Shown here piece after piece: positions 53,533-64,000 of a stretch of DNA of 64,000 bases. Under the pieces are notes generated by a model that saw only the letters and a list, made by a program, of their open reading frames with translations, did no database searches and was not told the origin of the DNA. Every line of letters starts with the position of its first letter. Position 1 is the first letter of the stretch. Origin of the DNA: Glutamicibacter protophormiae (GTDB lineage Bacteria > Actinomycetota > Actinomycetes > Actinomycetales > Micrococcaceae); the NCBI RefSeq assembly GCF_014647495.1, contig NZ_BMPH01000001.1, forward strand, positions 186,001-250,000, given 5' to 3'. The position numbers and the translations under genes were made by a program.

Positions 53533-53615
53533 AAACGTGCAAGAATGTTCGGGCGGCGAGCAGCTGCCCGGATGCGTCCGGACCGCCAATCAGCCCTGCC
53601 AAGGTGAAAGCAGCG

Positions 53616-54491
53616 ATGCGCGAGATGACGACTCGAAAACCCCGTCTAGACCAGTTCCTGGATCCAGCGCAACTCGATGCGGTCGAACGCTGGCTGCCTG
53701 ACTGCACCGTAGTCGCGGACCTCTCCTGGCATGAGACCGATACCCTGGTCCTGCACCTGCGTACCCCCGGAAGCGACTACATCCTCAAAAGCGCCGGAGC
53801 CGTGAACCGTCATTTCGAGCGGGAACTTGTCGCCCACAGCGGGCCGACGGCGGCACTGGTCGAGTCGGGGTTCGGCGCTGCGCTGCGTTTCGCCGATTCC
53901 CGGGCCAGGCTCATGATCCTCGAATATCTTCCCGGACGCCTCAGCGAGCACACCGCACGGGAACTGGACCCGGAATTCCACCGCCAGGCCGGACACGCCC
54001 TGCGAACCCTGCACCAGGGCACGGGGCGGCTCGACGCAGAATACGAATCGAAGCTGCTGGCCGTGAGCCTGAAGCGGCTGGGACAAGGGCACCGGATCGA
54101 ACCGGAGAACGAACGCCGGGCCTACGAGGCCCTGCGGGCCTACCGGCCGCGGCCGGTCCGGCTGGTTCCAACCCACGGCGACTGGCAGCCGCGCAACTGG
54201 TTGAGCGACCATGGAAACTTGAAGGTCATCGATTTCGGCCGTTTCGACTACCGTGCACCGTCCACCGACTTGGTGCGGCTGGCCAACCAGCAATGGCTGG
54301 GGCGCCCCGAGCTTGAAAAGGCTTTCCTGCAGGGCTACGGCGGCGACCCGCGACAGGCACGCAGCTGGCCGATCGAATGCCTGCATGAGGCTATCGGCAC
54401 GGTCGTCTATGCCTACCGCCTCGGCGCCGAGGACTTCGAAGCCCAGGGCCAGCGCATGCTCGGCCGGGCCTTGCAGCTTGCCGGGTGCTGA
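53616..54491 (+). CDS. Aminoglycoside phosphotransferase-like (APH/choline kinase fold) protein
   Basis: A protein of about 291 residues with the APH kinase fold. VPTHGDWQPRNWL is the catalytic loop (HGDxxxxN) and VIDFGRFDYRAP the metal-binding DFG-type segment; a lysine in YILKSAG may bind ATP. The substrate could be a small molecule such as a sugar, amine or antibiotic; sequence alone does not tell. ATG at 53616 follows AAGGTGAAAG; a GTG at 53604 in the same frame is also possible. It converges on the patatin gene. Confidence 0.78.
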   Translation: MREMTTRKPRLDQFLDPAQLDAVERWLPDCTVVADLSWHETDTLVLHLRTPGSDYILKSAGAVNRHFERELVAHSGPTAALVESGFGAALRFADSRARLMILEYLPGRLSEHTARELDPEFHRQAGHALRTLHQGTGRLDAEYESKLLAVSLKRLGQGHRIEPENERRAYEALRAYRPRPVRLVPTHGDWQPRNWLSDHGNLKVIDFGRFDYRAPSTDLVRLANQQWLGRPELEKAFLQGYGGDPRQARSWPIECLHEAIGTVVYAYRLGAEDFEAQGQRMLGRALQLAGC

Positions 54492-54544
54492 AGACCGCCA
54501 GGCCGGCATCGGCCACCCGCCGGTGATCCACGGTGCCGGCAGCC

Positions 54545-55849
54545 CTATTCGGAACGCGCGGTGCGCAGCATCTTCAGGGTGTCCCGGACGGCGAAGATCC
54601 GCTGCCGAAGTCCGTGGGCGCCGAAGGGCTCCAGCGAGATGAGCATGCGGATCCGTCCGAGCAGTCCCATCCGCAGCTTCGCACGCCGGGTGCCGAGCTC
54701 CGCTGCAGCCCGCGGGAGCTGCTCGAAGATCGACCGCCCTGCGGGAACGTCCCGCCGGATGACCAGCGGAACCCAGCTGCCATCGATCCTGGCCCGTGCC
54801 CGGTATTCCCACGCGGTGGCGGTGCGCACGACGCCGCCGGCGGCCAAGGGGATCGGAGGCTTCCCGCGCCGCCCGGTGATAAACCCGGTCACGGTTCCGG
54901 GCTGCATATCATCCAGCGGCAGCCACACGGTCAGCCGCACCCCGAACCCATGCCCGGACAACTGTTCGTTCCAGCTGACGCCAACCGGCCCATCGGTCAT
55001 GGCGGTGCATCGGTAATCGGCGTGAACCCCTTCCGGCCGAGACCGCTCAAGATAGGCGACCGCGTCCCGGTAGCCCATGGACATCAGCGTCGACGCGCTG
55101 ATCCGCCCCAGATAGAAGACCGGGTCCAGCGGCAGCGGGTGCTCCGGCTTGATGACATGCAGGACGAATTCACGTCCAGCGGCCTTGGCCTGCTCGAAAT
55201 CGGCCAGCAGCCCGCCGGTGGCGCTCATTTCGATCATGTGCACGTACTGTTCCAGCGGGCCGTTGCCCCAGTACGGGGAGTTGCCCACGCACCAGACCAA
55301 CCAGATTTCCCTAGCGCCATGATCCAGCGCCGCGGTGATATTCGCATCCCGGATCCACGCCGCATCGGTCCAGGTGGCCCCGTCGCGATGCAGCGGCGCG
55401 GTGAAAATCGGCAAGCTCATGCCCGCCACCAGCAGCTGCGGGTCCACGTCTTTGGATGAGACCGCGATGCTTCGCTTTTCGGTGAAGTTCGCGATGTTGA
55501 ACGTCCCGGGAGTCTTGCTTTTCCGGATGGCCTCCACATCCACGCCCATGGAGGGGAACAACTTGGTGATCATTGCCTCGGGGCTGGAAAGCGCCGGCAG
55601 GTTCCATGGCCCCCGCAGGTAGTCGCGCAGCGGCAACGGCGAGGAGAAATGGGAGACCTTCACCGAGGCCCAATGCTTCATCATCTGGTCTGCATCCTGC
55701 CCGGAGAGCATCATGGCGGTGTTCAGGATTCCGCCGGAGGTCCCGTCCACATGGGTGAACTCCAGGCCCGCTTCTTCCAGGGCCTTGAGCACGCCAGCCT
55801 GCCAGGCGACGCGCATGCCTCCGCCGGCGAGCACCAGCGAGCGTTTCAC
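54545..55849 (-). CDS. Patatin-like phospholipase family protein
   Basis: A 434-residue protein. The patatin oxyanion hole GGGMR (residues 9-13) and nucleophile elbow GTSGG (Ser38) are intact. The usual DGG of the catalytic Asp region appears as DAA (TWTDAAW, Asp162), so the Asp remains. The C-terminal part from about 285 (VSWNEQLSGHGF, then GVRLTVWLP) is outside the lipase domain and resembles the C-terminal module of the GMC oxidoreductase in the same operon (inference). It is expected to hydrolyse an acyl ester. It is the last of seven overlapping genes; its ATG overlaps the preceding stop by four bases. Confidence 0.85.
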   Translation of the reverse strand: MKRSLVLAGGGMRVAWQAGVLKALEEAGLEFTHVDGTSGGILNTAMMLSGQDADQMMKHWASVKVSHFSSPLPLRDYLRGPWNLPALSSPEAMITKLFPSMGVDVEAIRKSKTPGTFNIANFTEKRSIAVSSKDVDPQLLVAGMSLPIFTAPLHRDGATWTDAAWIRDANITAALDHGAREIWLVWCVGNSPYWGNGPLEQYVHMIEMSATGGLLADFEQAKAAGREFVLHVIKPEHPLPLDPVFYLGRISASTLMSMGYRDAVAYLERSRPEGVHADYRCTAMTDGPVGVSWNEQLSGHGFGVRLTVWLPLDDMQPGTVTGFITGRRGKPPIPLAAGGVVRTATAWEYRARARIDGSWVPLVIRRDVPAGRSIFEQLPRAAAELGTRRAKLRMGLLGRIRMLISLEPFGAHGLRQRIFAVRDTLKMLRTARSE

Positions 55850-56271
55850 CGCAGCGTCCGTTCATGCTTCGGGAGCATCTTCGCGCCCAGGCCGGCGGCC
55901 AGCACCGCGGCCGAGAGCAGGTCGAACGCCGCGACGGCCAGCGCCCGGCGGGCGAACACGCCGCGGCGCACCCCAATCGCGACCGCGCCGACCGCGCCGG
56001 CCTTCTGGACCACGGACCAGAACAGCGCCAGGCGCATCGACTTGCGGCAGAGCATCGAGTGGGTCAACATCCCGCCGGTGACCGTCATGAACATGCCGAC
56101 CGTTCCGAACAGCTGGCAGGTCGCCGGCGAATTCTCGGCCCCGACGAGCTTCAGCACGAGGCCCGGAGCAGCCGCCTGGCTTGCCCCGGACACCACGGTG
56201 ACAGCACCGATGCCAAGCGCCGCGCGATCCAGCAGCGGGCCGGAACAGGATTTTACTGATGTGCGTTTCAT
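55846..56271 (-). CDS. Small membrane protein of the 7-gene cluster (A)
   Basis: A 141-residue membrane protein with four hydrophobic segments near residues 12-35, 45-65, 80-97 and 110-130 and a basic C-terminus. I do not recognise a family. ATG at 56271 (MKRTSV) follows GGAGG; a start at 56286 is possible. Its stop overlaps the patatin start and its start overlaps the upstream gene's stop, each by four bases, so it is a fixed member of the cluster. Confidence 0.72.
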   Translation of the reverse strand: MKRTSVKSCSGPLLDRAALGIGAVTVVSGASQAAAPGLVLKLVGAENSPATCQLFGTVGMFMTVTGGMLTHSMLCRKSMRLALFWSVVQKAGAVGAVAIGVRRGVFARRALAVAAFDLLSAAVLAAGLGAKMLPKHERTLR

Positions 56272-56765
56272 GGCAGTGCCTCCCATAATTCATGGCCCGC
56301 CAGCAGATAACCGACCGCGGCCGCCCAGTAAACCAATGCTGCGTAGAATCTCGCCCAGTTGCGCGTGACCCACTGGCGCATCGTGGCGCGCAGCTCGGAC
56401 TCGTCGGTCACCGCACCGGTCAGCAGCTGCTGGTTGACCGGACGCATGGACAGCGCAAACCACAAGGCCAGGAACATGTATGCCGCGGCGGTGGCGATGG
56501 CGAAGGCCAGCGCCCACACGTGGGTGCGGCCCAGCCACATCTGGACCAACGGGGCGACCAGCAAGGGGAGGAACATGATCCCCAGGAAACGGGTGATCGC
56601 CGTGATGGGCACAGCGAAGACCGTCGACAGCTCATCGAGCCGCAAGCCGAGAAACACCGGACGCAGGAAGAACTGCGCCACCGTCATGAATCCGAGATAC
56701 AACGATGCCCCAAAGACGGTGACCAGTGCCGAAACCAGTGCGGTCCAGGCCAGTGCCGCGCTCAT
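56268..56765 (-). CDS. Small membrane protein of the 7-gene cluster (B), DUF1772-like
   Basis: A 165-residue membrane protein with four helices near residues 3-32, 56-77, 83-104 and 138-158. The segment MRPVNQQLL, then RQWVTRNWARFYAALVYWAA, resembles the DUF1772/anthrone-oxygenase-like family, in which an asparagine and a conserved W-x-x-x-x-W/R region follow helix 3; the match is moderate. Overlaps both neighbours by four bases. Confidence 0.7.
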   Translation of the reverse strand: MSAALAWTALVSALVTVFGASLYLGFMTVAQFFLRPVFLGLRLDELSTVFAVPITAITRFLGIMFLPLLVAPLVQMWLGRTHVWALAFAIATAAAYMFLALWFALSMRPVNQQLLTGAVTDESELRATMRQWVTRNWARFYAALVYWAAAVGYLLAGHELWEALP

Positions 56766-57688
56766 TGGACTCGGCTTTGGTCCCGTTGCGGAGGGTCGGG
56801 CCAGTCTTCGCCCAGCCCCAGCCCGACCACCGAATCCATGCCGTCCCCGCCGTAGGGGGCGCGGTCACGGCCGTACTGGAACCATGCCTCGTAATGGTCA
56901 TCCAGCACCCCGTGCGAATCGGGGATATACAGGGTGAACACCGGCTGCGGGTCGAAATCCAACCCGGCCAGCCCTGCCACCTGAGGCAGGTCGCCGAACT
57001 CCAGCCGCGCCTTGGCCTGCCGGCCGATCGACACGTCGGCGGTGCCCTGGAAGTAGATGCTCGACTTGTAGAGCATGCCGCGGAACGAGCAGTAGTTCAC
57101 CGCACCGACCTTGATCGGCAGCGCGGTGGGCGCCGGGCGGTCGATCTCCACCAGCGCGCCCTTCACCCCGTCCAGCTCGTAGGCGCTGGACACTGTCTGG
57201 TCCGTCACCTTGAAGTCGAGGCTGGCCTGGTGCTTTGGCATGCCCCAGATGCCCTTGCCGCCCTTGACCGAGATCTCCGTGCTCACCGGCAAATCCACCA
57301 CGTACTGCCCCAGGTTCAGGGTTTTCTGGAACAGCATGGGCAGCAGCGGCGGCGCCGGCCGCATGCCGCGGGTGACCGCCAGGGCCAGCGAGTACTCGAT
57401 ATAGGCGCCGATATCCGTGGCCAGGTAATTGATCACGGTGACCATCAGCAGCGATTTCCCTCCCGGCAGACGGAACGGATGCAGCTCCTCGCCGGGGATC
57501 AGCCGCGCGGCCGCTTTGGCGTCGACGGGGAACGCGGTCATCAGGACCGGCGAGGGCTCGGAGTTCACCGGCAGCAGGTAGCTGATGCCGTCCACGGTGG
57601 CCTTCTGCCCGGACAGCTGCCGCTGGCGAGCCGGCAGCGCGGAGGGCAGCAGGCGCAGCGCCGAACGCAGCGGGGGTAGCAGATTCAT
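56762..57688 (-). CDS. Acetoacetate decarboxylase-like protein
   Basis: A 308-residue protein of the acetoacetate decarboxylase superfamily. It has NYLATDIGAYIEYSLALAVTRG and GKGIWGMPKHQASLDF, the two segments that form the cone-shaped active site; a lysine in the second could be the Schiff-base residue, but I cannot align it with certainty. Superfamily members also act as aldolases, dehydratases or binding proteins. Overlaps the alpha/beta hydrolase gene upstream and the DUF1772-like gene downstream by four bases each. Confidence 0.8.
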   Translation of the reverse strand: MNLLPPLRSALRLLPSALPARQRQLSGQKATVDGISYLLPVNSEPSPVLMTAFPVDAKAAARLIPGEELHPFRLPGGKSLLMVTVINYLATDIGAYIEYSLALAVTRGMRPAPPLLPMLFQKTLNLGQYVVDLPVSTEISVKGGKGIWGMPKHQASLDFKVTDQTVSSAYELDGVKGALVEIDRPAPTALPIKVGAVNYCSFRGMLYKSSIYFQGTADVSIGRQAKARLEFGDLPQVAGLAGLDFDPQPVFTLYIPDSHGVLDDHYEAWFQYGRDRAPYGGDGMDSVVGLGLGEDWPDPPQRDQSRVQ

Positions 57689-58737
57689 GATGCAAGCTCC
57701 TGAAGGATCAGAGGATAGGTGTCGCGCCAGGCGTCCCTGCCGAAAATAAGGTCCAGATGCCCGTAGCCGGGAATCACGTGCAGCGAATGCTTCCCGGGGG
57801 CGTAGTGGTCGAAGAACTCGTAGGTGCGCCGCTGCCCCTGCGGCAGGAAGCAGCGGTTGTCCGCCCCGGCGATGAAGGAGAACCGCGCCTCGGTGCGCGG
57901 CGGCCCGTCCACCAGCGAGGCGGGAAGCTGGCTGCGCTTCCCGGTGGGCACCAGGTATCCTGCCTTGACGCTGTCGGCCATCTGGCGGAAGAAGGACAAC
58001 GGGGCGCCGGCGAACTCCCCGATGATCCAGCGGTGGGTGGCGTCATCCAGGTTCGCATGGGACCACAGGGCCGGGTGCCCTGCCCCGTAGGTGAAGGACA
58101 CCAGCCGGCAGACGGTGTTGTCGCATTCGTGGTGGGTCAGCTTCACCCCTGAACGCACGATGCGCGAGAAATACCCCTGGGACTTGTAGCCCCAGCGCGG
58201 GGAGAGCATCGGGGTGAACCCGCCCAGCAGCGGCAGCAGGTGGGTGATCTTCTGGCGGGACACCCAGGGGACGTCCACGAACAGCGAGGAGGCATTGGAG
58301 ACGATGGTGCGCACCTGCGGCAGCAGCCCGGCCACGGCCGCGATGGTGAAGGAGGTCGACCCCTGGCAGTGCACGAACGCCGCGAGCGACTCCGCCCCGG
58401 TGCGGGCCAGCACCTCGCGCACCGCCGCCGGATGGTCGAACACTGCCGCGTCATCCAGCGTCCAGGCCACCGGCGGCAGGTCGATGGACGCGCGCCAGTT
58501 CAGCATCCACACGTCCCAGCCCTCGTCCAGCAGGGCGTCCACCAGGGTGCGGGCGATCGGCGGCCGGAACAGCTCGGCGCGCACCCCGGCCCCGTGCACC
58601 AGCAGCACCGGTCCGCGCGGGGCGTCCGGGCAACGGCGCGATGATACGTGGATGAGTGTCAGCGGCAGCCCGTCGTCAGCCGAAAACTGCACCACCTCGG
58701 TCGCATGATCGGCGCGGGTTGTCTGCACTGTGGTCAT
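57685..58737 (-). CDS. Alpha/beta hydrolase with cysteine nucleophile
   Basis: A 350-residue alpha/beta hydrolase. VLLVHGAG (47-51) is the oxyanion-hole loop. The nucleophile elbow reads FVHCQGST, with Cys124 where most hydrolases have serine. Probable acid and base are Asp293 (AGADNRCF) and His327 (PGYGHLDLIF). Cysteine nucleophiles are known in dienelactone hydrolase and PHA synthases. No signal peptide is visible. It overlaps the metallophosphoesterase and acetoacetate-decarboxylase-like genes by four bases each. The substrate is probably an ester, lactone or thioester made by the cluster. Confidence 0.82.
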   Translation of the reverse strand: MTTVQTTRADHATEVVQFSADDGLPLTLIHVSSRRCPDAPRGPVLLVHGAGVRAELFRPPIARTLVDALLDEGWDVWMLNWRASIDLPPVAWTLDDAAVFDHPAAVREVLARTGAESLAAFVHCQGSTSFTIAAVAGLLPQVRTIVSNASSLFVDVPWVSRQKITHLLPLLGGFTPMLSPRWGYKSQGYFSRIVRSGVKLTHHECDNTVCRLVSFTYGAGHPALWSHANLDDATHRWIIGEFAGAPLSFFRQMADSVKAGYLVPTGKRSQLPASLVDGPPRTEARFSFIAGADNRCFLPQGQRRTYEFFDHYAPGKHSLHVIPGYGHLDLIFGRDAWRDTYPLILQELAS

Positions 58738-60635
58738 TGGACACCTCCCGGGGTGCTGAAGCCGTTGATGCTCACGATGATCGGATCCTCCAGCAGGCGC
58801 AGCTGCGGCAGCCCGCCGACGGGCACCGGGCGCATCTGGTTACGGGTGCTGGGCCCGGTCTCCCAGTCGTGGACGACGGTGTCGGCAATCACCGGATAGA
58901 TCACCAGGGTGCCGTCCTCGCGCAGGTGCATACGCAAGAACCCCTTGCCGTCCTCGTAGGCCAGCGCCGTCATCTTCAGCCGGCCCACCGCCCCGGACGG
59001 GGCGAACACCAAATGCAGTGCAAAGGCCATCGTGCCGGCGGCCGCGCCCAGCACCGTGGCATAGACCGCGGCCAGCAGCACGGTGATCCACCCGGCGCTC
59101 CAGCTCCGCTGCCAGGGCAGGGCGATGAGCCCCGTGAAGATGCCCGACGCCAGCAGCAGCTGCACCCCGACAAGAAGCAGCGGCTGCACCAGCGGGCTGG
59201 CTCTCCCGGAGTCCCCGGGCCCGGCCTTGACCAATCCCCGGGCGTTGCGCGCCAGCCACAGCAGCAGGGCCACCAGCAGCGGCACCACGAACAGGAACAC
59301 CACAATGCCCGCGGCGTGGACCCAGTCGCCCGAACCCAGCGCCTCGGGGTACGAATCCCCGGTGATCCCGGAGAAAATGGTGCACAAGAACATGAAGCAG
59401 CCCAGGTGCACCACACCCAGCCCGGTGCTGAACCACGGGTTGCGCCAGGGCAGGAAAAATTGGCTGAACGGGTTGGCCAGCTTCCAGTGCAGCGCCCGCT
59501 CCTGCGCGGGCGTCGGGTATACGGTGTCGGCCAGCGCATACCGCTGGCGCTCGGCCGGATTCACCATCTCCCGCGAACCGGTGGGCGGCAGCAGCAGCTC
59601 GGGCGACAGGTGCCGGGCCCCCGAAAGGTAGGCCCCGCCCAGCCCGCAGGTCAGCAGCTGCTCGCGCCGCGGGTCTTCCGGCCCTGCCTGCTCATGCAGC
59701 TGGGCGTAGCGCGCGTAGTGGTGCTTGTCCCCGCTCAACCGCACCCGGATCTGCGCCCCGGTGGGCGTCGATTCCCCGGTCGCCGGATCCGTCCGCCGCA
59801 ACAGGTAGTGGTTCTCGAAGTAGCGCAGCGCGTTGTTCGCGTTCGGGTCGCCGTCCGGCAGCGTCCCGGTGGCCTCCCAGGTGGGGGAGGAGGCGCACAG
59901 GATGATCGCGTCGCCCGGCTTCAGGTGCCGCGTCACCTCCGCCTCGAAGTACTGCAGCTGCGGCCGGTCGATGTAGCTGCCCAGTTCGCTGTCCAGCGCC
60001 ACCAGCCACCAGGTCTTCTGCACGGTGTTGGCTTCCAGGTTCGTCAGCCGCGCGGCGAAGTAGCCGCGGGACTGCAGGGTCTGCCACCCGCCGATCTTCG
60101 CCTGCTGGCAGAAGATGCGTTCGAAGGCCGTCAGCCCGTCGTACCAGTCGTGGTTTCCGGGCAGCGCCAGCAGCGCGGCCGGCGGCCCCGGGAGCGACGC
60201 GGCCCGGTAGGGGCGCACCAGCCGGTCCTCGTAGGCGCGTTCGGACGCTGCGGGGTAGACCTCGTCACCGCCCATGACCAGCAGCTGCGACTTGGGCAAC
60301 GCCACCTGCGGCCGGCCGGGATCCGCGGCCTGTACCTGCAGCTCGGGCTGGGCCAGCGCCCAGGCCATGGTGTAGGTCGCGTCGAAGCCGTCGCCCAGGT
60401 CAGCGATGAAGTCGATCCAGCGGCCCTGCTCCTGCGGCGGGAAGCCGCCCAAGTCCAGGGCCCGCTGCGGAAAGATGCTCTGCGTTTCCCGGTTGTCCAT
60501 GAACCCCAGGAAGACGTGGGCGGCCAATGACTGGATGCCGGTGCGCAGCAGCTCGGGCGGGGACAGCCAGCGCACCGCCGGCCGGGGGCGGAACCCCAGT
60601 TCATGCTCGAACTGCGCCAACTCATGCTGGTTCAT
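58734..60635 (-). CDS. Metallophosphoesterase with C-terminal membrane domain
   Basis: A 633-residue protein. The N-terminal calcineurin-like domain has LGDGFDATY (81-), LVMGGDEVYP (about 119-128), the strict LPGNHDWYDG (158-167) and LSGDKHHYARY (about 316-326), which together form the two-metal site. About five helices follow between residues 395 and 545 and a soluble tail contains WETGPSTRNQ. It presumably removes phosphate or a head group from a membrane lipid or prenyl phosphate. ATG at 60635 lies inside the 3' end of the GMC gene (14-base overlap); a start at 60665 would lengthen the overlap. Confidence 0.87.
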   Translation of the reverse strand: MNQHELAQFEHELGFRPRPAVRWLSPPELLRTGIQSLAAHVFLGFMDNRETQSIFPQRALDLGGFPPQEQGRWIDFIADLGDGFDATYTMAWALAQPELQVQAADPGRPQVALPKSQLLVMGGDEVYPAASERAYEDRLVRPYRAASLPGPPAALLALPGNHDWYDGLTAFERIFCQQAKIGGWQTLQSRGYFAARLTNLEANTVQKTWWLVALDSELGSYIDRPQLQYFEAEVTRHLKPGDAIILCASSPTWEATGTLPDGDPNANNALRYFENHYLLRRTDPATGESTPTGAQIRVRLSGDKHHYARYAQLHEQAGPEDPRREQLLTCGLGGAYLSGARHLSPELLLPPTGSREMVNPAERQRYALADTVYPTPAQERALHWKLANPFSQFFLPWRNPWFSTGLGVVHLGCFMFLCTIFSGITGDSYPEALGSGDWVHAAGIVVFLFVVPLLVALLLWLARNARGLVKAGPGDSGRASPLVQPLLLVGVQLLLASGIFTGLIALPWQRSWSAGWITVLLAAVYATVLGAAAGTMAFALHLVFAPSGAVGRLKMTALAYEDGKGFLRMHLREDGTLVIYPVIADTVVHDWETGPSTRNQMRPVPVGGLPQLRLLEDPIIVSINGFSTPGGVQ

Positions 60636-63084
60636 GATCAGGCTTCCCGGAGCGGCGCGGTGCAAGGTAGCTGCGGTACAGCGACCCGAGGAACAGCCCT
60701 CCGAAGGCCGACAGCGCCTGGAGTTTGCGCGGGCCCTGCGCCCTGAAGGTCGTGAGCTGGCGTGCGAAGTCCAACGGCTCGATGTACAGGACGCCGGATC
60801 CCAGCACCGCCGGGTCCTCGGAGGCCAGCAACCCGGAGGCCGCGGGCAGTTCCGGAGGCGGCGGGAAGACGTGTCCGTCCAGCAGCTGCACGAACAGCGT
60901 CGTGGTGTCCGGCCAGAGGTCCAGGCCCGGCCCGTCCTGGATGTCCTTGAACCCCACCATGGTCAGCTTCCGCCCGCCGGGGGACTGGATGTGCAGCCGG
61001 TACAGCATCAGCCGGCGCTGTTGCCCGTCGGGCACAAACAGGTTGAACCAGCCGCGCAGCACCGGGCAATGCCCGCCCAGCACGTCCGCGTCGAGGAAGC
61101 CCTCGGCGCTCGCCGGGTGGCGTGGGTCGTCGGTGAAGCGCTCGATGTCCTTGGCGGTGATGGTCAGGGTGAACATCATCCGCTCATGGCGCAGCGACGC
61201 CTGCTCCAGGCCGGATTTCGGTTCGCCCACACCCAGGGTGACGTGCCCGCGCATGGTCTCCGTGAACGCCACCGTGGTGGCCCGGGGATTAAAGAGCCCG
61301 GCCGGATCCTGCGCGTCCGTGGCGGTGTCCTCGGCAGCTGCGTCGGCGGGGGCGGCCCCGGCCGCGGCGCCAGGGGAGGCCCACTGCTGGTCGAGCAGGT
61401 GCTCGCAGGCCCGGTCCGCCATCGCGGCGATGGTCAGCGACGGATTCGGGCCGACCGGACCCGGCATGGCGGCGCCGTCCACCACGTACAGGCCCGGCTG
61501 GCCGTACACCGCGGACCACGGGTCGCAGACCCCGACCCGGTCGTTCGCGCCGATCGGCGCCCCGCCCAGCGGATGCACCGTGACCACGCGCTGGGCCTTC
61601 CACAGCGGGTTGTCCTTGAAGGCGGCGCCCAGCTGGTCGCCGATGCCGCGCATGGTGCCGCGCACGGATTCGAAGTACTCCTGTGATGTGGACAGCGTCC
61701 AGTCCGCGGCCAGGCGGCCCTCGCGCAGGTACATGCGCCCGTCGGGCACATCCCGGCCCATGCCCAGCAGCGGCAGCGCGGTGCTGGAGAAGCTCCCCTG
61801 GCCCAGCGCCATGGCCAGGTCGGCGGAGATGCTGCTGCGGTTCTGCTGGAACAGCCGGTTCTCGAGGATCTTCGCGGCCACCTTGCCGGCGCGCGGCAGG
61901 GCCTGGCGGAACTGCGAGAGTTCCATGAGCCAGTTGAAGAACGCCGGGTAGCCGGCGTCCTGCAGGTAGTAGCCGCGTCCGGTGGCCCCGTTGCCGTCCG
62001 CTGCGTCCGCGACTCGCACGGTGCTGGTGATGACCGGGCCGTGGTTGCCGTAGAGCCGGCGCGGCACCGTGCGGCCTTCCACCTGTTCGCTGGCGTTGAA
62101 CAGCAGTCCCAGCAGGTCTCCGTTGCTGCTGAATCGGGTGCCCAGCGCCGGGCTGATCCCCGGCAGGGTCATCCGGTTGCGCAGCAGCAGGTAGCTGGTG
62201 CCAAAGGTGCCGGCGGCCAGCAGCAGCTTGGCGCAGCGGATCAGCCGTTCGGGCAGGTCTGCGGTGGCGGCGGGCTGCTGCGGGTCGTGGACGACGTAGC
62301 GCACCAGCCAGCTGCCGTCGGTCTCTCGGGAGAAGCCGCGCACCTCGTGCAGCGTGCGGAGATCGGCGTTGCCGGTTGCCGCCGCCGCGGAAAGGTAGTT
62401 GTGGTCCAGGGTGTTCTTGGCTCCCGAGTTGCAGCCCAGATCGCATTCGCCGCACAGCGTGCAGGTGGTGCGGGGCTTGCCGTGGATGTTGCCGTAATCC
62501 GCCAGCGGCAGCATCCTGCCCGGCTGGGCGGGGGAGCTTGCATCGGTGGAGAAGCTCACCGCCAGCGGCGGACGGAACACCGTGTGGCCGCCGGCCCGGG
62601 CGGCCTGCTCGAAGGCGTTGGTCTTGGCGGTGTCAGGGTAGGGGTAGCGGTTCACGCCGATCATGTCCTCGACGCGCTGGTAGTGCTGCTCCAGGTCCCG
62701 GTACCCGATGGGCCAGGATTCATAGCCGCCGCCGGGCAGCGGGGATTCGTTGACGAACCACTTCTCGTCCTTGCGCAGCAGCACGTTCGCGTAGATCAGC
62801 GAGCCGCCGCCCAGACCGCTGGAGACCAGCCCCTCCAGGCCGCGCAGTGTCCAGGCGTCGAACAGCCCGTAGAGTTTTTCGCTCGGATCCCAAAAGGCGG
62901 TGGCCAATTCCGCCGGGGAGCGGGCGAAATCGCCGGGCCCGTAGGATCGGCCGCGTTCCATCAGGACCACTTGCTTGCCGGCCTCGGCCAGGCGGTAGGT
63001 CGCCACCGAACCGCCGAACCCCGAACCGACCACAACTGCATCTACATATTCCGTCGGCACCCGGCCGGCACGAATTTCCCCCAT
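60622..63084 (-). CDS. GMC family oxidoreductase (cholesterol-oxidase-like)
   Basis: An 820-residue flavoprotein. VVVGSGFGGSVATYRLAEAG (18-) is the FAD dinucleotide fold. CTLCGECDLGC (C208, C211, C214, C218) followed by GAKNTLDHNYL is characteristic of the cholesterol oxidase/ChoD subgroup. HPLGG and the final GLYVVDGAAMPGPVGPNPSLTI segment complete the GMC domain by about residue 565. A further domain of about 220 residues (TETMRGHVTLG ... WPDTTTLFVQLL) follows that I do not find in simple GMC oxidases. It likely oxidises an alcohol on a sterol, hopanoid or other isoprenoid lipid. ATG with AGGAGGGGGAC; first gene of the seven-gene cluster. Confidence 0.88.
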   Translation of the reverse strand: MGEIRAGRVPTEYVDAVVVGSGFGGSVATYRLAEAGKQVVLMERGRSYGPGDFARSPAELATAFWDPSEKLYGLFDAWTLRGLEGLVSSGLGGGSLIYANVLLRKDEKWFVNESPLPGGGYESWPIGYRDLEQHYQRVEDMIGVNRYPYPDTAKTNAFEQAARAGGHTVFRPPLAVSFSTDASSPAQPGRMLPLADYGNIHGKPRTTCTLCGECDLGCNSGAKNTLDHNYLSAAAATGNADLRTLHEVRGFSRETDGSWLVRYVVHDPQQPAATADLPERLIRCAKLLLAAGTFGTSYLLLRNRMTLPGISPALGTRFSSNGDLLGLLFNASEQVEGRTVPRRLYGNHGPVITSTVRVADAADGNGATGRGYYLQDAGYPAFFNWLMELSQFRQALPRAGKVAAKILENRLFQQNRSSISADLAMALGQGSFSSTALPLLGMGRDVPDGRMYLREGRLAADWTLSTSQEYFESVRGTMRGIGDQLGAAFKDNPLWKAQRVVTVHPLGGAPIGANDRVGVCDPWSAVYGQPGLYVVDGAAMPGPVGPNPSLTIAAMADRACEHLLDQQWASPGAAAGAAPADAAAEDTATDAQDPAGLFNPRATTVAFTETMRGHVTLGVGEPKSGLEQASLRHERMMFTLTITAKDIERFTDDPRHPASAEGFLDADVLGGHCPVLRGWFNLFVPDGQQRRLMLYRLHIQSPGGRKLTMVGFKDIQDGPGLDLWPDTTTLFVQLLDGHVFPPPPELPAASGLLASEDPAVLGSGVLYIEPLDFARQLTTFRAQGPRKLQALSAFGGLFLGSLYRSYLAPRRSGKPDHEPA

Positions 63085-63262
63085 GTCCCCCTCCTGGGAA
63101 GACCTAGCAGATTCGCGAGGTGGATAGCCTCGTGTCCAGAATTAGGCTCATCTTACCTACGCCGGACGAGTGTGGAAAGAGGGAAACTCGACAGCTTCTA
63201 GTTTCTTTTCCGTCGTCGTGACCGCGGTCGAACTGGGCGTAGCCAACATCATCATCGAAAAA

Positions 63263-63292
63263 TTGGTTTCAGCCCAAAAGGTGGCGGATAAT
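63263..63292 (+). promoter_or_regulatory. Putative sigma-70 promoter of dxs
   Basis: TTGGTT (63263-63268), 18-base spacer and GATAAT (63287-63292), about 80 bases upstream of the dxs start. The rest of the 291-base divergent region with the GMC gene shows no credible gene. Confidence 0.5.
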
Positions 63293-63375
63293 GGGAGCAG
63301 TCAAGTGCGCGATAGACTAGTTGTTTCGCACGGACTTGCGGTGCCCGCACGGGCAGAAATGTGAAGGGGATGACT

Positions 63376-64000
63376 GTGTCTTTACTCGAGACCATAAAGA
63401 AACCAAGCGACCTGCGGGCGCTTACCCTGGATCAGCTCACCCAGCTGGCGCAGGAGATCCGCGCCTTCCTCATCGACAACGTCGCCCGCACCGGCGGCCA
63501 CCTGGGCCCGAACCTCGGTGTGGTGGAACTGACCATCGCCATGCACCGCGTGTTCGATTCCCCGACCGACTCCATCGTGTTCGACACCGGCCACCAGTCC
63601 TACGTGCACAAGCTGCTGACCGGACGCCAGAATTTCCAAACGCTGCGCCAGCAGGGAGGCCTGTCCGGATACCCCGACCGCGGCGAATCCGAGCACGACA
63701 TCGTCGAGTCCTCCCACGCCTCGTCCTCGCTGTCCTGGATCGACGGCATCTCCCGGGCCAACAAGCTGACCGGCCGCACCGAAAGCTACGCGGTGGGCCT
63801 GGTGGGCGACGGCGCGCTGACCGGCGGCATGGTCTGGGAAGCGGTGAACAACATCGCCGCGGACAAGGAGCGCAAGGCCGTGATCGTGGTCAACGACAAC
63901 GGACGCTCCTACGCCCCGACCATCGGCGGTCTGGCCGACCAGCTCGCGGGCCTGCGCCAGCAGCTGGACAAGGTCCGTACCCACCCGGCGTACGAAACCG
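63376..64000 (+). CDS. dxs: 1-deoxy-D-xylulose-5-phosphate synthase (3' end missing)
   Basis: The N-terminal 208 residues of Dxs, which condenses pyruvate and glyceraldehyde 3-phosphate using thiamine diphosphate in the first step of the MEP isoprenoid pathway. Visible segments are [47 protein letters not shown] and [16 protein letters not shown] (thiamine diphosphate and Mg binding). The gene runs off the window end. GTG at 63376 (MSLLETI) matches the family N-terminus and has AAGGGGA at the right distance; an ATG at 63370 is two codons upstream. It is divergent from the GMC cluster. Confidence 0.95.

Follow-up and report, generated by a model that had tools for sequence, protein, structure and literature searches.

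A recurrent, mobile seven-gene cluster of Glutamicibacter protophormiae with a candidate role in lipid processing

What common task could hold together a flavoprotein, a phosphoesterase-like protein, an alpha/beta hydrolase, a decarboxylase-like protein, two small membrane proteins and a patatin? The question is raised by seven overlapping genes, here called A to G, on the minus strand of a 64,000-nucleotide stretch of Glutamicibacter protophormiae DNA (the window; contig NZ_BMPH01000001.1, positions 186,001 to 250,000, from a genome of 3.83 Mb). An earlier interpretation made from the letters alone (the sequence-only reading) had described them as a tightly packed lipid-processing cluster, and their open reading frames (ORFs) were confirmed at 54545–63084. 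The answer that we favor, and consider rather likely, is that the cluster forms an operon that moves horizontally and encodes a single membrane-associated complex of several lipid-processing enzymes. There is good support for the seven genes forming one system; the lipid context is suggested by the enzyme families, and the substrate and order of steps proposed below are putative. The features are as follows.

54545–63084, minus strand: seven-gene overlapping cluster A–G (ORFs and overlaps read from the sequence)
60622–63084, minus strand: gene A, GMC flavoprotein of 820 residues with a C-terminal shared domain, termed mid (PF05199, 1.9e-14; PF00732, 1.4e-5; relatives)
62431–62463, minus strand: cysteine motif of A, C208-x5-C214-x3-C218, predicted 3Fe-4S site (window protein; 72/73 relative ORFs; spacing of BcGDH, see below)
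60649–61287, minus strand: residues 600–812 of A, the undescribed mid domain (fusions, no Pfam family, structure model)
58734–60635, minus strand: gene B, divergent calcineurin-like phosphoesterase of 633 residues (PF00149, E 0.0072, under its cut-off; GNHD and GDxHHY motifs; hydropathy)
57685–58737, minus strand: gene C, acid-lipase-family alpha/beta hydrolase with Cys124, His327 and Asn294 (profile match, motif)
56762–57688, minus strand: gene D, acetoacetate-decarboxylase-like protein with invariant Lys152 (PF06314, 3.5e-12)
56268–56765, minus strand: gene E, small membrane protein, of the Anthrone_oxy family through its relatives (10/11 family members match PF08592; hydropathy)
55846–56271, minus strand: gene F, small membrane protein whose relatives are fused to patatin in Myxococcota (fusions, hydropathy)
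54545–55849, minus strand: gene G, patatin with a shortened mid-like C-terminal region and a GTG start (PF01734, 2.1e-23; alignment; G-mid fusions)

Read directly from the sequence, A and B overlap by 14 bases and the other five junctions by four bases each, as had been reported; the claim that all five read ATGA does not stand, since this is true of B/C, C/D, D/E and E/F, whereas F/G reads GTGA because G starts with GTG. A promoter and terminator scan gave no promoter-like site and four terminator-like sites, against 4.1 expected. Pfam cut-offs were exceeded by A (GMC), C (Abhydrolase_1), D (ADC) and G (Patatin), while the scan of E returned a chance-level match only and F had neither a Pfam match in the window scan nor a convincing family through its relatives. 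Hydropathy places hydrophobic segments in B (residues 402–546), E and F.

The same gene content recurs far from its own family. Within the family, 8 of 197 genomes have gene A (E 1e-20), and at least five of these eight, its own genome included, carry the cluster in full. A scan of named genomes with the GMC alignment returned at least 327 relatives, from which 80 loci were kept (the named loci to which the counts below refer). Additionally, a profile of D matched 7 of 396 genomes in its own phylum (own genome included), 4/296 in the phylum of Aquiflexum, 4/398 in that of a Methylococcaceae genome and 22/146 in that of Myxococcus. Among the 25 loci found through D that were read, which leave 9 of the 22 Myxococcota matches aside, C lies within 102 bp of D in 24, and in the remaining one (L115) a GMC fragment overlaps a D fragment. 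Taken over 35 D loci, a set that excludes the window and 13 duplicate loci (D being present in five of these), C is present at 34 (in 33 cases on the same strand and no more than 102 bp away), mid at 34, GMC at 33, patatin at 27, a phosphoesterase at 25, F at 24 and E at 22; the absences are partly artefacts because some loci stop at contig ends. All seven roles occur together at 18 of the 35, in Actinomycetota, Bacteroidota, Pseudomonadota and Myxococcota, or at 17 if L148, whose phosphoesterase (model m5) is recognized by motif alone, is set aside. The sequence-only reading had staked its proposal on co-occurrence outside close relatives, which is found here in four phyla; its view of close packing and a common lipid-related task is likewise supported.

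In a midpoint-rooted tree of C (87 hydrolase rows, with the same 13 duplicates and L111 left out and matches of up to 280 residues dropped), all 34 rows from D loci fall inside one 37-row group with support 100/100, which itself spans Actinomycetota, Bacteroidota, Pseudomonadota and Myxococcota; its three other rows are L048, L092 and L021, the last from a contig of only 6 kb. Gene order varies between loci, being for instance C-D-E-F-G-B-A in Aquiflexum, and therefore favors a shared function over simple descent of synteny. Three clusters of the Bacteroidota group hold an extra small membrane protein (L050:6424-6843, L149:8410-8862 and L147), and the one scanned, that of L149, matches PF14248 DUF4345 (4.6e-10).

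A second line of evidence comes from the mid domain, a region of about 200 residues at the C-terminal end of A. No Pfam family corresponds to it: in a scan of 48 members (E up to 1), each family hit was confined to a single member and the best E was 0.031. Its structure model (pLDDT 90, pTM 0.86) is mainly beta with a C-terminal helix, and no convincing solved relatives were found by sequence for mid, B or D. The domain is fused in single ORFs to several of the other products, as GMC-mid (41 ORFs), GMC-mid-C (35), F-G-mid (10), G-mid (9), mid-C without GMC (6), D-mid (1) and, in swapped order, mid-GMC (1; L071:11927-14200, in a metagenome-assembled genome of Candidatus Anammoxibacter), and it also occurs standing alone; these counts, like the motif counts of A and C, include duplicate loci. 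Thus, fusions connect A, C, D, F and G, and B and E are connected by neighborhood only. The window patatin G ends in a shortened region that aligns with mid. Across ten genomes chosen for having the system, mid occurs one to three times each, and every one of the 14 matches is located at a GMC or patatin gene of this type; a Myxococcus genome carries two extra GMC-plus-mid genes (G596:C335 and G596:C62; L181, L186) besides its D cluster. A Leptospira plasmid (L018:5504-10523) encodes the fusion and, after it, a second GMC reading in separate ORFs. The sequence-only reading had missed the mid domain of A, the one-ORF fusions and the island nature of the cluster.

The island nature becomes apparent from the borders of the cluster, which are flanked on the left by an APH-family gene and acn and on the right by dxs.

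54492–63360, no strand: inserted stretch between the APH-family gene and dxs (both genes about 130–170 bp apart in five congeners)
53604–54491, plus strand: left border gene, APH-family kinase, convergent (PF01636, 1.1e-16)
63361–64000, plus strand: right border gene, the start of what we take to be dxs, running off the window (named by recognition of its protein, without a family search)

Five congener regions without the cluster, from among 14 other genomes with an APH match, were compared; in all five the APH gene and dxs are adjacent with about 130–170 bp between them, and in four acn stands beside this pair. The cluster lies between the two genes in its own genome and in one congener (G023), and gene A is present in 2 of the 12 listed genomes of the genus, its own one included. 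Five more copies, in three genomes of the same family, in Arthrobacter sp. SW1 and on a plasmid of Arthrobacter sp. StoSoilB13, lie where neither acn nor dxs was found in the stretches searched around them. Against G023, the ratio of nonsynonymous to synonymous substitution rates (dN/dS) is 0.09–0.26 across the seven genes, with 0.03 for dxs and 0.21 for the APH-family gene as controls. From the adjacency in congeners, these further copies and the ratios it follows that the cluster entered as a block, forming an island, and has been maintained by selection.

The distribution also bears on two other explanations. A chance assembly of unrelated, hitchhiking lipid genes would fit the presence of A in so few genomes of the genus, and is hardly credible given that conserved content in changed order across four phyla, gene fusions and purifying selection already refute it; it is the low dN/dS together with the recurrence across phyla that makes the cluster more than chance. 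An anti-phage defence island, in which a patatin would act within a patchy and mobile locus, could draw on the patchy distribution, on the insertion at one site and on antiphage lipases that G matches weakly in NCBIfam (E 0.066 and 0.19). We consider this highly improbable, as none of the seven proteins matches PADLOC at E 0.01, no sensor or nucleotidyltransferase is found among them and the core consists of redox enzymes. A mobile operon for lipid processing remains the interpretation pursued here.

A had been described as a cholesterol-oxidase-like GMC flavoprotein. The GMC assignment and the resemblance hold: the nearest solved structure by sequence is a cholesterol oxidase (4.5e-48), bacterial cholesterol oxidases (1b4v, 1coy) being the best solved match for the GMC domain, and His504 and Asn547, invariant in alignments of six, occupy the position of the GMC catalytic pair. 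A is probably an Fe-S dehydrogenase and not an oxidase, because the C-x5-C-x3-C spacing of C208, C214 and C218 matches that of 3Fe-4S dehydrogenases. Of 73 full GMC ORFs from relatives, 72 carry the motif (at least three pairs being duplicates), and it is absent from the cholesterol oxidases aligned to A. It also lines up with the cysteine region of a gluconate-dehydrogenase-like protein, in which the last gap exceeds that of A by one residue; the solved structures nearest to that protein are FDH and BcGDH. In Burkholderia cepacia glucose dehydrogenase (BcGDH), Cys212, Cys218 and Cys222 hold a 3Fe-4S cluster (PMC6719666), a spacing that A shares. Similar to the glucose, fructose and gluconate dehydrogenase complexes that use flavin adenine dinucleotide (FAD) and 3Fe-4S (BcGDH, 6a2u; FDH, 7w2j), A has the GMC fold and the His/Asn pair; it differs from them in being nearer to cholesterol oxidase, in bearing mid and in having relatives fused to or located beside an acid-lipase-like hydrolase, and the window genes include no hitchhiker or haem subunit.

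These assignments, together with those of C, speak to a sterol or steroid catabolism island in which A would be a cholesterol oxidase and C would hydrolyze cholesteryl esters. The nearest solved structures, cholesterol oxidase for A and the gastric and lysosomal acid lipases for C, are what such an island would predict. It is nonetheless quite unlikely: A reaches 191.7 bits against an equivalog cut-off of 850 for NCBIfam NF058674, which together with the cysteine motif led us to reject cholesterol oxidase as its identity, two residues of the lipase triad, Ser and Asp, are lost in C, and no ring-cleaving steroid gene is found among the seven.

For C, the proposed Cys nucleophile was upheld at Cys124, and the family can be narrowed from alpha/beta hydrolases at large. 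The C profile matches gastric lipase (1hlg, 7.6e-19) and lysosomal acid lipase (6v7n, 1.3e-13), aligning to the former across positions 7–348 of 351, with the HG motif and the HLD region retained. At the sites that we take to hold the nucleophile Ser and the triad Asp of these lipases, C has Cys124 and Asn294, whereas His327 is retained; the Ser-His-Asp triad is therefore not present in C. HCxG occurs in 61 of 66 relative C ORFs, five showing no match and none a serine. C is thus related to the acid lipases, with Cys, His and Asn standing where these have Ser, His and Asp.

D bears out its description as acetoacetate-decarboxylase-like with 46.8 bits against a cut-off of 29.8 for ADC (PF06314). 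Lys152 is found in 34 of 37 rows, window included, with gaps in the other three, and it aligns with the PK motif of an ADC-family protein, whose lysine is presumably the catalytic position of acetoacetate decarboxylase. D departs from that enzyme in that the residue following the lysine is mostly His, and its profile found no solved ADC at E 1; the comparison ADC likewise found none at E 1e-5.

E had been called DUF1772-like, which is true of its family, in which 10 of 11 members match PF08592 Anthrone_oxy (E up to 1; best 3.7e-6), presumably the former DUF1772; the window protein is the one that does not. F has two clear hydrophobic segments in its hydropathy profile, and hhalign detects no significant relation between E and F. 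The patatin assignment of G was confirmed (PF01734, 84 bits against a cut-off of 27.7). Its best sub-threshold NCBIfam match, VpdC, was rejected at 17.6 bits against a cut-off of 1000 and was not taken as evidence.

The family of E also opens the question of whether what the enzymes work on is a secreted polyketide or terpenoid, which they would complete, instead of a lipid. Such tailoring of a specialized metabolite would accommodate the Anthrone_oxy relatives of E and an AfsR/SARP regulator that adjoins the Pseudonocardia hydrolase, and ADC-like and GMC enzymes are found in specialized-metabolite pathways. However, the seven genes include no core synthase, none was recognized among 12 recurrent flank families of 36 loci (most of them taken without a library search), the same gene set occurs in four phyla, and the patatin and acid-lipase families indicate lipids. 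We regard tailoring as unlikely, and return to a lipid-processing complex.

B is a divergent member of its family. Its description as a metallophosphoesterase with membrane helices is borne out by its motifs and by the hydrophobic stretch, not by PF00149, whose cut-off it does not reach. Similar to calcineurin-like phosphoesterases (PF00149), B and its relatives conserve GNHD (block III) and GDxHHY; B differs in its diverged metal blocks and hydrophobic C-terminal half. Measured against what we take to be the canonical metal-binding blocks I–V, the set in B is incomplete: the block-I and block-IV His are missing and Asp replaces the first His of block V (GDxH). A phosphoesterase gene accompanies the GMC gene at 35 of the 80 named loci (B in 11, models m2 in 13, m3 in 9, m4 in 1 and m5 in 1), and hhalign finds no significant relation between the m2 and m3 families. 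Five genomes totalling about 28.2 Mb hold 72 PF00149 matches, so that about 4 would be expected in flanks of up to 1.6 Mb, against the 35 loci observed; this comparison is only rough because the models differ, several loci are close relatives (six are Pseudomonas), and recognition of m4 and m5 was through a weak Pfam match or GNHD alone. Taken over the loci, the widest core consists of A with mid and C, often with a phosphoesterase, and D to G form an extension.

Several observations weigh against a single seven-part complex. Actinomycete loci such as those of Lentzea and Actinomadura have GMC-mid and C with no recognized phosphoesterase in the stretch examined. Conversely, B homologues stand alone on plasmids of Mesorhizobium ciceri and Rhizobium phaseoli (L165:7944-9692, L166:7959-9887), where tblastn found no A, C, D or G in the stretches concerned. 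B may not be a phosphatase because its canonical metal-binding residues are missing, and the phosphate release that the sequence-only reading had envisaged is accordingly left unproven. Lastly, a Pfam scan of the seven window genes found no partner for A, neither a cytochrome or other haem subunit nor a small subunit of the Gluconate_2-dh3 type.

Haem proteins do occur near relatives. Downstream of the hydrolase, 12 loci (including Pseudomonas and Bryobacterales) encode a di-haem protein with two CxxCH motifs (e.g., L089:13404-15749 and L054:13546-15441). The one checked matches PF21419, a RoxA-like cytochrome, and 11 of the 12 show several N-terminal hydrophobic segments on inspection of the sequence. 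Comparison of F with this hydrophobic part by hhalign gave E 0.022 and a probability of 2 percent.

If the seven products do form one complex, the following course is plausible. Patatin G and the Cys-His-Asn hydrolase C would release or transfer an acyl group, and A, using FAD and the predicted 3Fe-4S cluster, would oxidize the lipid alcohol thus exposed to a ketone or aldehyde, passing its electrons to a membrane or cytochrome acceptor and not to O2. The lysine of D might then decarboxylate or cleave the resulting beta-keto acid, while B could act on a phosphorylated head group. E and F may anchor the complex or serve as an oxygenase or electron partner, and mid would hold the enzymes or their lipid substrate together.

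A keyword search of the open-access literature, with subscription papers outside its scope, found no described pathway with this gene set, in keeping with the earlier statement that none was recognized; two papers deal with GMC or cholesterol oxidase genes singly and do not mention the cluster. We put forward tentatively, with slightly less than even confidence, that the cluster represents an undescribed lipid-redox pathway carried as a mobile cassette in at least four phyla, in which a new domain unites a flavodehydrogenase of the Fe-S type, an acid-lipase-like acyltransferase with a Cys-His-Asn site, a Schiff-base decarboxylase, a patatin and membrane proteins in one complex, and that this complex remodels or degrades a class of membrane lipids for which such metabolism is not so far known. 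The plasmid records examined annotate these genes as GMC oxidoreductase, alpha/beta fold hydrolase, metallophosphoesterase and hypothetical protein; the recurrent cassette and the repeated fusions to one unassigned domain suggest a metabolic module that is missing from annotation. Two enzyme variants lend themselves to direct testing, namely the acid-lipase relatives with a Cys-His-Asn site and the cholesterol-oxidase relatives of the Fe-S type, and a tractable laboratory organism is available through the copies in myxobacteria.

Beside the island, the APH-family gene (53604–54491) is 89 percent identical to that of G023 and 46–54 percent identical to those of congeners without the island; in the five congeners compared, identity is 89–91 percent for dxs and 93–96 percent for acn. 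To judge from these values, the APH-family gene may evolve fast or may have been replaced.

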